The translations under genes were made by a program, and so were the position numbers. From Salinibacterium sp. dk2585 (GTDB lineage Bacteria > Actinomycetota > Actinomycetes > Actinomycetales > Microbacteriaceae), in contig NZ_CP042856.1 in NCBI RefSeq assembly GCF_008001035.1, forward strand, positions 1,550,001 to 1,614,000: 64,000 bases of DNA, in the 5' to 3' direction. Positions within the stretch are counted from its first letter, which is position 1; each line of letters begins with the position of its first letter. The notes under the pieces are model-generated. The model had not been told where the DNA came from and did not search any database. It saw only the letters and a program-made list of their open reading frames with translations. Below, piece by piece: positions 44,233-48,809 of the stretch.

Positions 44233-44277
44233 ATGAGCACTCACCCTGAAATCGCGACACGGCCAGGCGACACCTGA
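44233..44277 (+). CDS. Possible 14-codon leader ORF before crcB
   Basis: ATG 44233 opens a 14-residue frame (MSTHPEIATRPGDT) whose TGA overlaps the crcB ATG (TGATG). If translated it would couple initiation of crcB. There is no clear Shine-Dalgarno, so it may be chance. No fluoride riboswitch was recognised in 44115-44276. Confidence 0.25.
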   Translation: MSTHPEIATRPGDT

Positions 44278-44738
44278 TGGCACCGCGCCCCGAGCACCTC
44301 AAGTGGGCACCGATCGGGCTCGTCTTCGTTGGCGGCGCGTGTGGTGCAGCAACTAGCGAGTGGCTCTCGCTGGTCATCCCCAAACTCGGCGAAGTGCCTG
44401 TCTCCATCGCCATCATCAACGTCATCGGTGCCTTCCTCCTCGGCTACTTGTACGAAGCGTTGACCCGCCTCGACAACACGAAGCCGACCGGCAAGAACCT
44501 CAAGCTCCTTTTGGGCACCGGATACTGCGGCGGTTTCACGACCTACAGCTCACTCGCCACCGACACCGGCGTGCTGTTCCGCGATGGCTTGCCGGTTGAA
44601 GCGACTATCTACTCGCTGGGCACCGTTCTCGTCGGAGCATGTGCCACCTGGCTCGGCATCGTCATCGCCAACGCGGTGAACAAGGCCCGCGGGCCCGAAA
44701 CGGAGCAGCCCGCTGACCAGACCTGGAAGGCATCATGA
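44277..44738 (+). CDS. crcB: Fluoride channel CrcB/Fluc (first subunit)
   Basis: 153-residue four-helix membrane protein that exports fluoride. Family blocks: FVGGACGAATSEWLSL, INVIGAFLLGYLYEAL (with the conserved Asn) and LLGTGYCGGFTTYSSLATDT. The C-terminal tail is longer than usual. It overlaps the second crcB by 4 bp (ATGA). Paired genes usually form an antiparallel heterodimer, whereas single CrcB proteins form homodimers. Local GC is lower than that of the surrounding genes. Confidence 0.93.
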   Translation: MAPRPEHLKWAPIGLVFVGGACGAATSEWLSLVIPKLGEVPVSIAIINVIGAFLLGYLYEALTRLDNTKPTGKNLKLLLGTGYCGGFTTYSSLATDTGVLFRDGLPVEATIYSLGTVLVGACATWLGIVIANAVNKARGPETEQPADQTWKAS

Positions 44739-45112
44739 CTCCCATGATCTTTCTGCTCCTCGCCGTTGGCGGCGGCGTAGGCGCTTGCATCCGCTTCACC
44801 GTCGACGGGCTGATCCGCTCACATATGAAGACCAAATTCCAGTGGGCGACAACGATCATCAATGCCTCAGGATCACTGGTGCTCGGCTTCCTCACCGGCC
44901 TGACCATGGTGCATCTGCTGCCCACCGACCTCGGCATCGTCATCGGCACCGGATTGCTCGGCGGGTACACGACCTTCAGCACCGCCAGCTACGAGACCGT
45001 GCAACTCATCAAGGAGAAGCGCTACGGCCACGCGTTTATCAGCGGCGTTGTCATGCTCGTGCTCTGTGTCGCACTCGCCGGACTCGGACTCTGGATCGGC
45101 GCCTCCATCTGA
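44735..45112 (+). CDS. crcB: Fluoride channel CrcB/Fluc (second subunit)
   Basis: 125 residues. Blocks [34 protein letters not shown] and [19 protein letters not shown] match Fluc proteins, including the Asn and the GGxTTFS motif. Coupled to the first subunit. Positions 44821-44880 count 28 G+C in 60, well below neighbouring core genes, suggesting horizontal origin. Confidence 0.93.
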
Positions 45113-45151: not shown

Positions 45152-45304
45152 GCCCATCGCCTGCGAGTCCGACGACACGATCGAGATCACGCCTTCGTCG
45201 TGCAGCACCGTTTCTGCCGCGATCGTCTCGGCGTGCACCCGCGAGTCGGCGAACGACACGTCTTCGGGGATGTCGAGTGCGTGCCCGCCTCCCGCGCCTT
45301 CTGT
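45152..45304 (-). pseudogene. ureC: Decayed fragment of urease alpha subunit
   Basis: The minus-strand frame contains TEGAGGGHA followed directly by [20 protein letters not shown] and [22 protein letters not shown]. These match two conserved parts of UreC: the [12 protein letters not shown] segment and the PEDVAFAESRI...AAEDVLHD...SSDSQAMGR segment. About 40 residues expected between them are missing, and the sequence stops resembling UreC on both sides. Only about 50 codons survive, with no start. It fills the gap between crcB and the channel-FUSC gene; no other urease gene is in the window. Confidence 0.8.
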
Positions 45305-45326
45305 GCCCACTGGCCCCTCGGCTGCG

Positions 45327-48300
45327 CTATGTCCCGGCGCGATCCAGCCGGATATCGCCGGCCTGCGGCGCAAGGTCGACGGCCATGATCGCGACCGTTT
45401 GGTTGGCCCTCGCGAGCGCACGGAGCGCCGCCTCGGCCGAGTGTGGCTCGTCCGTATCCCCGAGATCGTCGATGCCGATGTCAGGGCGCACCGGACCGGA
45501 GGCCCGACCTTCATAGGCCGCAATGAGGGCATCAAAGTTCTGAGCGGTCGCCGTCTCGAGCTGCTCCCACTGGTCATCGGTGAGGCGCGCTTTGGCGCGA
45601 TGGCCCTGTTCAGCGGATGCGATGAAGTGCCTGGTGTAGTACAGCAGCTCCCAGAATCCGGTGAGGCGGTTCTCGATCCCGCCGGGCGCGAATGCACCGG
45701 AACCGTGACGCAGCGGACCCGCCGTTGCCTGAAGGTCTCGCAGCCGGCTCGTCATCACGACTTCCTGCTTCGACAGCGCGGCAATATCGTCGGCCGACGG
45801 CTGTCGATTGCGCTTCCACAGCTCCAGGGTCGCCGTCGTGATCGACTCAACAGTCCTCGCGAGCTCGACCGCCTGCCTGGCGAACTTGTCGCTCGTGCGT
45901 GTCGGCAGAATCAACGCGGCGACGATCAGGGCGACGCCGGCTCCGATGATGGTCTCGACGATGCGCACACCGATTGTCTCAGTGTTCAAGCGGCCCATGA
46001 ACTCGTACATCTGCGCGAACATCATCGTCGTCCAGAACGACGTGAGCGGTGACGACGCCCCGCGGAAGTACGTCGTCGCGAAAATGCTGACCGCGAGCAC
46101 CGGCACGAGCACCGCCGGATTTGATCCTGCCGCAATGGCAATGCTGAACCCGACGATCGCACCGAGCACGGTTCCGGCGATCCGCTGCGAGCCCTTCACG
46201 AAGGTTTCGCCATCGGTTCCCCCGATCGCCTGGTATGCGGGCATGGCTGCCCAGTACTGGTGGGTTGTCGACACGAACGACCCGAGGGAGAGGGCAACGG
46301 CTGTTGAGACACCGGCCTGGACGGCTCTGCGCCAGATGGGTGCGGTGTCGGCGGAGACAGGAGCTTCCGCGGCTGCGGGGACGCCGTCCGTCGCCCTTGC
46401 ATCCCCGTCGGCGGTTGTCGCCGGAACCGCGGTCTCGGGCGCGGGGGACGATTGCGTCGACAGGTCGGCCCACGCAGGCACGGATGCGAGGTCAACGGCA
46501 CGCGCCGAATGCAGCACGTCGACCGCGTGCTGCAACTCGTGCGCAGCGCCGAGAACGCGACGTGCGGCTCGTGGCCAGTGGGCAGCCGACTTGAGTGACG
46601 GCAGCGATTCCAGTGAATCGGCTGCGGAGACAGCAGCGGGCGGGTTCGGGGTCGGGGCCTCGTCACCCTTTTTTGTAGGCGAAACCCACGCCGGAGCATC
46701 CGGGTAGCCGGTGATGTGCTTCTGCACCGACTGAAGGGCTCCGGCAAGGCGCGCGCGAACGTCGACCGGCACACCGGCTCCCGTCGCCAATCGGGCTTCG
46801 GACGACAGGTTCACCAGCGCAAGTTCAGCCTCGTGAACGCGGATGCGCAGCGCACTCGCCTGCTCGGCCGTCGACCCGATGTCGGGGTCATCACCCGTCA
46901 ACTGACCAGCCAGGAAGGAGGCCATCTGGTGCGTTCGCCGGAGTTCACTCCTGGTGCGGTGCATGAGATCGGGGTCCCATCGCGCCGCGGACACCGCATC
47001 GATCATCGGATCGAGCGCGCGCACCAGGCGGTTCTCAAAAGCGACAACCCCGCCTTTCACCACCCGGGCGTGTGCGCCCTTGTTCGGCACCAGCTGAAGC
47101 ACGACGGAACTGAGGACGCCGACAACCGCTGCGCCGGCGAACGGGAGGAGTTCGTCGACCTGGAGGTCGAGGATCAGCGTGAAGTAGTACGTCATGAACG
47201 CGAGCTGGCCCAGCCCACCCAATTTCGGACCGAAACGAGTGACGGCGATCCCGATAAAGGCCAAGGCGACAAGGGCCGCGCTCGCCGGAAGCGGCTCGCG
47301 CGGAATCAGTGCATGAATTCCGAGCGAGACCAGCACGGGCACGAGGGAGATGAGCGCGGCGAGCCGCCGGATCCCGTGCCCACCCCCGGATGCCGCACTG
47401 GTGAACATGGCGATCATTCCGCCGAAGATGGCGGCCGGGAACGCCGGGAGGCCAATCTGGGGCAGACTGACGGCAAGAACTGCCACTGCGAGCGCCGCAG
47501 CGAGGAGTCCCCTGATGGCCCCGATGAGCCGAGTGAAGCCCGGGTCGACGAGGGTGATTCTCCGGGACAGGAAGCCCCAAATTCCTCCGTTGCCGTCCTT
47601 CCGCTCGGTTTCATCTGGCGCTGGCGCCAGGATCGCCTCCGGCGCTTCATCCTGCGGGTTGGAGTAGATCGGCTGGTAGTCCAGGTCGCGACTGATCGCC
47701 GCGCTGAACTGCTGGGCACGGTAGGCGAACGGCAGCCACGCCAGGTAGCGGGAGTACGACTCGTTCAGGTCTGTCAGGGGTTCAATACCCACGAGCCTGG
47801 CCATCTCTCGGTTGACGAGGACGAAGCGGCTCACCCAGTAGTCGACGTCGTCCTTTCTCCTGACACGTCGACGCAACGTGGTCCGTTCCTGCGCGAGTTC
47901 GGCGCGTACCTGCCGAGAGAACTCACCGGCCGTCACCGTCTCAGGCACATCGGTGCTCGTCCAGTTGAGCAATGGATGCATGTAGGTCTCGAACTCTTCG
48001 AACTGGTCCGTCAGCGGCAGGAGCATTGGCTGAGCGGTGACCGGGTTCGGCGCGGGGAGGCCCCAGCGCAGACCGCCGATAATCCCGGCCAACATCTGGA
48101 TCGAGTACGGCAGCGAGAACGTATCGCGACCGCTTTGGAAGTAGTAGGCGGCGTGGTACAGACGCACCCCGTCGGTGTATGAGCTGAAGCTGTCAGACAC
48201 GCTCTGCAGGTGTGAGTCGAGCCCTGTCTCAGTGCCGCCGGGGAAGTACGGTTCGAGGCTCGAGATCGGGGGCCCGATCCCGTCTCCTGCGCTGTAGAAC

Positions 48301-48809
48301 TGCGACGACAGAGACCGAAGATTGGAGATCACGTCATATACGCCGAGCAGGAAGGTGAGAATGAGCGAGACCAGGACAACCCCGCTCACGGTCTCCACGA
48401 CCGAAAGGATTCGGAGAAAATCCGTGTTCGGCGTCAGTTGTGATGTCCCGACGGCAGACAGTTGGGCGGTGCTGAAGTACATCGCACCGAACAAATCGCC
48501 GTGCACGCCGTCGTACGTGAAGTTCTTGCCCTGCATCGAACCGAGGTAGATCAACCCGAAACCGATGATGGTTCCGCCGATCCAGGTGATCACGGCTCCC
48601 AGAACCTGCAGCCCGATCACCTGACGGAGAACAACCGGCCGCCAGCGCCGCGAGAGGCGTCGGGTGAACCGTCTCGTCAGCCCCCACTGCCAGCGGGCAA
48701 CCCGCCCGGCTACGAACCCCGCCTCGTCATAGTTGAGCGCGCTGAGGAACACATCGATGAGCGTCACCGCTAGAACGACGAATCCGAGTCCTACCCACAG
48801 GGCATCCAT
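45327..48809 (-). CDS. Ion-channel-like module fused to FUSC-type membrane domains
   Basis: 1160 residues. Residues 1-160 look like a two-helix K+-channel pore module: helix, helix, then [18 protein letters not shown] (110-127) in place of the usual TVGYGDITP filter, then a second helix ([17 protein letters not shown]). A soluble region follows to about 425, then two FUSC-type multi-helix blocks (about 430-565 and 815-985) joined by a helical and Pro/Ala-rich linker, and a cytoplasmic helical tail. Likely an ion-conducting or efflux membrane protein. No close family recognised; unusual architecture. Confidence 0.75.

Follow-up and report, generated by a model that had tools for sequence, protein, structure and literature searches.

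The NaK channel of Bacillus cereus carries the filter TVGDGN, in which only sites S3 and S4 are present, and with these two ion sites the channel is non-selective and lacks K+ selectivity (PMC9822992). PF13515 is the pore-forming core of the ALMT anion channels of plants, which are placed in the PF13515 group (PMC10490231). Transport of ammonia/ammonium belongs to the ureolytic energy metabolism of Ureaplasma (PMC7930009). Exporters of the FUSC/AaeB/YccS type (PF13515, PF04632, TIGR01666) possess no N-terminal channel module. The window analysed here, a stretch of 64,000 nucleotides from Salinibacterium sp. dk2585, encodes a protein in which such a module is present: a K+-channel-like pore and a FUSC-type transporter are fused in one chain of 1160 aa, as the preliminary description had proposed, and the same architecture was found in 11 intact proteins. 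Both parts belong to known families, but their combination, the filter and the link to urease described below had no match in searches of an open-access literature library, where nothing was found on a channel-FUSC architecture, on this filter or on a FUSC-urease association. The gene is present in one copy in the genome. The features of the locus are as follows (positions in the window):

45327..48809, minus strand: complete CDS of the channel-FUSC fusion protein, 1160 aa (ORF and 11 intact fused proteins)
48315..48809, minus strand: residues 1-165, TM0-TM1-pore loop-TM2 channel module (PF07885 at 103-154, K2P/NaK profile match, hydropathy)
48429..48458, minus strand: residues 118-127, filter position, [10 protein letters not shown], K+ signature TxGYGD lost (alignment with stand-alone relatives keeping GxGD; VGT[SGT]Q shared by 10 of the 11 fusions)
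47595..48314, minus strand: residues 166-405, conserved and mostly helical tail, predicted to be cytosolic (up to about residue 380 it has a homologous counterpart in the tail of the stand-alone 380-aa channels)
46710..47540, minus strand: residues 424-700, first FUSC-type membrane block and soluble helices (co-linear BLAST to the FUSC proteins L012, L013 and L011; not recognised by Pfam)
45330..46340, minus strand: residues 824-1160, second FUSC block (FUSC_2 at 839-963) and C-terminal soluble helices (PF13515, E = 2.7e-16)
45152..45305, minus strand: ureC scrap adjoining the 3' end of the fusion gene, in two colinear pieces (38 bp with 92 % and 123 bp with 98 % DNA identity to ureC of the congeneric genome G143)

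The fusion gene is a single intact ORF without internal stops, and the plus strand of the same segment is interrupted by stops. Full-length fused proteins, 11 including that of the window, occur in Microbacteriaceae and Rhodococcus and are 35-83 % identical to the window protein. The set comprises the window, Microterricola pindariensis (judged from identical contig coordinates to be G766 as well, and counted once), three Rhodococcus, G149, G129, G143, G064, G804 and G718. Comparison of the window gene with that of G149 gave a dN/dS of about 0.07-0.14. Since this ratio is low and the relatives are intact, the fusion ORF is real and constrained, and the joining of two genes by a frameshift or an assembly error, considered in the preliminary description, is ruled out. 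The fusion is rare and patchy in its distribution: with the exception of the window, none was present among 297 sampled genomes of the class, and a search of plasmids yielded FUSC parts only and not the fusion.

The channel module was recognised as PF07885 (Ion_trans_2) with 24.2 bits (cut-off 22.5), and six of seven other fused proteins scanned exceeded the same cut-off, only L123 remaining without a match. A profile of the N-terminal family run against PDB matched K2P and NaK channels with E values down to 2e-13. Hydropathy placed TM0 within residues 1-28 and TM1 (58-92) and TM2 (129-165) on the two sides of the pore loop; from the predicted topology, the arginine-rich loop at 29-60 is probably cytoplasmic. 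AlphaFold2 models of the full-length protein and of the N-terminal part, based on five-sequence alignments, were of low confidence in both runs (mean pLDDT of 44.7 and 36.4). Only their helix pattern is usable; it comprises a pore helix from residue 106, a break at the filter and a long helix from residue 129, and is compatible with the pore loop expected at residues 95-130. The length of 160 residues given earlier for the channel part needs correction: this part extends over about 380-400 aa and includes an extra N-terminal membrane helix and a conserved tail.

A search of the phylum with residues 1-430 retrieved stand-alone proteins of ~370-420 aa, homologous over residues 1-379, together with shorter relatives of ~300 aa. 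These actinobacterial PF07885 proteins with three TM segments (~300-400 aa, e.g. L065-L072) match TM0, TM1, the pore, TM2 and the tail of residues 1-380, and a YYF/YYH-type tail motif is common to stand-alone and fused channels. Unlike the fused proteins, they have no FUSC part and keep GLGD, GFGD or GYGD filters, which in the close group read TLGLGD, TLGFGD, TVGFGD or GLGYGD. The N-termini of the fused proteins form one clade with a support of 100/99, and the channel module of this stand-alone family was joined to a FUSC transporter once, in a single origin. A split-gene ancestor, with a stand-alone channel gene beside a stand-alone FUSC gene, was not found around 11 stand-alone loci, and the flanking DNA of the stand-alone loci examined contained no homologue of the FUSC part of the fusion. 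A circularly permuted ATP-grasp gene is adjacent to L066 and one gene away from L065, and a similar-looking protein is encoded beside L068.

The K+-selective filter TxG[YFL]GD is missing in all 11 fused proteins, so that the replacement of the K+ signature, noted previously for the window protein, is a real loss conserved across the fused clade. The filters read VGTSQ in eight proteins, VGTTQ in R. coprophilus, VGTGQ in G064 and AGADN in G718. Ala119 ('SAVG') is private to the window protein, the ten other fused proteins having Thr at this position. The loss concerns the outer filter half, and the pore of the fused clade is strongly conserved. The channel module, which occurs with the K+ signature in the stand-alone proteins and without it in the fused ones, constitutes a natural experiment. 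The fused proteins and NaK have pore-loop homology in common, and in both TVG is kept and YGD is lost; the fused proteins differ in having VGTSQ instead of VGDGN and in the addition of TM0, the tail and the FUSC part. By analogy, VGTSQ may be accompanied by a NaK-like loss of selectivity. Because (T)VG is retained and YGD is absent as in the NaK filter, we infer a pore of low selectivity, which would pass monovalent cations with little discrimination. The ion selectivity of a non-canonical filter is not readable from sequence, and the pore could also be non-conducting.

A sensor role was proposed in the preliminary description as the alternative to altered ion selectivity: a non-conducting pore might act as a sensor or assembly platform, either multimerising the FUSC transporter or gating it in answer to pH, a ligand of the tail or the membrane potential. 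Consistent with such a role, every fused protein has lost the K+ signature while conserving the pore helix, TM2 and the tail, and tail residues 166-300 of the fused proteins have a mean identity of 64 %, as high as that of the membrane part. However, the filter stretch is among the better conserved parts, beyond what would be expected of a passive scaffold: the mean pairwise identity of the 11 fused proteins is 68 % in the pore stretch 104-130 versus 52 % over the whole protein, which indicates that the pore is not decaying, and the VGT[SGT]Q motif is shared by all but one of them. We consider the sensor or platform role possible but doubtful, and a cation-conducting pore is retained as the preferred reading.

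In the FUSC part, the second block gave 60.3 bits with FUSC_2 against a cut-off of 25.6, and each of the seven other fused proteins that were scanned also exceeded it. The fusion is co-linear with FUSC proteins of 800-850 aa. The first block (424-580) had no match in the Pfam scan; BLAST against proteins of the same bacterial family aligned residues 422-993 co-linearly to the 807-aa FUSC protein L013 and residues 422-558 to L011, with L012 as a further match. Of the two FUSC-type blocks of the preliminary description, the second is clear from PF13515 and the first is a probable one, supported mainly by co-linear BLAST homology. Comparison of the profiles of the two blocks (hhalign) gave no significant internal repeat. 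An ArAE_1 match is also present, and NCBIfam matches of the YccS type are weak, YccS (TIGR01666) reaching 30.8 bits against a curated cut-off of 470.75. The only match of the FUSC part among PDB profiles was the anion channel GmALMT12, in the second block, with E = 0.74, which is not significant alone. The PF13515 core is common to the fusion and the plant ALMT channels; the C-terminal domain is different and the relationship is remote.

The fusion gene lies beside a urease operon in 9 of 11 cases, the exceptions being the window, which has the ureC scrap, and G064. At six Microbacteriaceae loci (L076, L077, L078, L002, L122 and L123) it is situated on the same strand directly upstream of ureA-ureB-ureC-ureF-ureG-ureD. 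The nicO gene follows ureD in L076, L077, L078 and L122; in L123 it lies upstream of the fusion gene, and the L002 sequence stops short of this position. At the three Rhodococcus loci the fusion is divergent from amt, an ammonium transporter gene, which is followed by ureABC. A neighbouring gene for a protein of ~700 aa had been taken for the FtsH protease on the basis of size and conservation; this was wrong, and Pfam identified the product as UreC. Among 400 genomes of the family the fusion was present in eight, all eight with ureC, and a full ureC match was obtained in 27 genomes overall (hypergeometric probability of the co-occurrence 1.5e-10, ignoring kinship). In nearly every case, then, the gene adjoins a urease operon of the same type. 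This association, which was missing from the earlier reading of the sequence alone, is the most informative fact on the fusion, and genomes with and without a fusion-linked urease form a further part of the natural experiment. The fusion-linked UreC proteins are 76-89 % identical to UreC of L076, and the unlinked ureases compared (G022, G093, G000, G143 and G064) are about 47-53 % identical to it. Provisionally, one urease type appears to go with the fusion, five unlinked ureases having been compared among the 27 ureC genomes.

At the window locus the ureC scrap beside the fusion gene is most simply explained by deletion of the linked urease operon, and the window fusion protein is an intact orphan after the loss of that operon. 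The genome keeps a second, different urease at 2.37 Mb (L121, C1:2364001-2383000), whose UreC is about 53 % identical to the fusion-linked type; both urease types are present in G143. Whereas the ureC scrap is nearest to the congeneric G143, the window fusion protein shares only 62 % identity with that of G143 and is closest to the protein of G149, from a different genus (82-83 %). This discordance suggests exchange of the fusion gene or of the operon. Recent decay following the loss of the operon was also considered and left no clear sign, with 15 private changes at conserved sites in the window protein versus 11 in that of G149. One of the 15 is T119A (codon 48453-48455, minus strand); it occurs only in the genome without the linked urease operon, which may be due to chance.

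Since the fusion gene is almost always found beside one urease type, we infer a function in common with urease: the fusion protein would work in the same process as the linked enzyme, with transport as its contribution. The chances of such a tie appear about even. Against it we count the fusion of G064, which is unlinked to urease and lies at a contig end in a genome whose own urease is of a different type and on another contig, and a Streptomyces replicon that has a similar ureC but no fusion. The window gene is intact in the absence of its operon, so the protein does not strictly depend on that operon for its role. NH4+ would be the most plausible cation for the pore, although as the permeant ion it is a tentative proposal with the balance against it; in Rhodococcus the Amt encoded between the fusion and ureABC could itself handle ammonium, which speaks against this role. 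The FUSC part, whose relatives include exporters (AaeB) and anion channels (ALMT), may carry an anion or may be gated by the pore and the tail, and the pore and FUSC part together would lighten the burden of ammonium (and counter-anion) that ureolysis places on the cell. In its most specific form, which we regard as quite unlikely, the cation pore would act in one chain with an anion-type FUSC pathway to release NH4+ electroneutrally with bicarbonate or carbamate as the counter-anion, providing a urease-coupled salt exit. Such a putative exit would differ from the known systems (Amt, UreI, UT and Urt). If true, two transport principles would be united in one chain, and urea breakdown would give a biological context to the poorly understood FUSC exporters and to an orphan group of bacterial channels.

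A general efflux pump of the FUSC type, exporting aromatic or other organic acids and merely sharing the urease neighbourhood, is an unlikely alternative. It would agree with the FUSC_2, ArAE_1 and YccS-type matches, with the persistence of the window gene after its operon was lost and with the unlinked copy in G064, but it is opposed by the linkage to urease in two bacterial groups, each with an arrangement of its own, and by the co-occurrence with ureC in eight of eight genomes. Uptake of urea for the linked urease is about equally unlikely, since, although the gene adjoins the urease operon in two arrangements and no urea transporter family was seen in the part of the neighbourhood scanned, urea transport is not known for FUSC proteins or for the channel family, and urea also crosses membranes passively.

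Two adjacent CrcB-family genes (44277-45112, plus strand; Pfam CRCB) are convergent with the fusion gene in the window and probably encode paired Fluc fluoride channel subunits.
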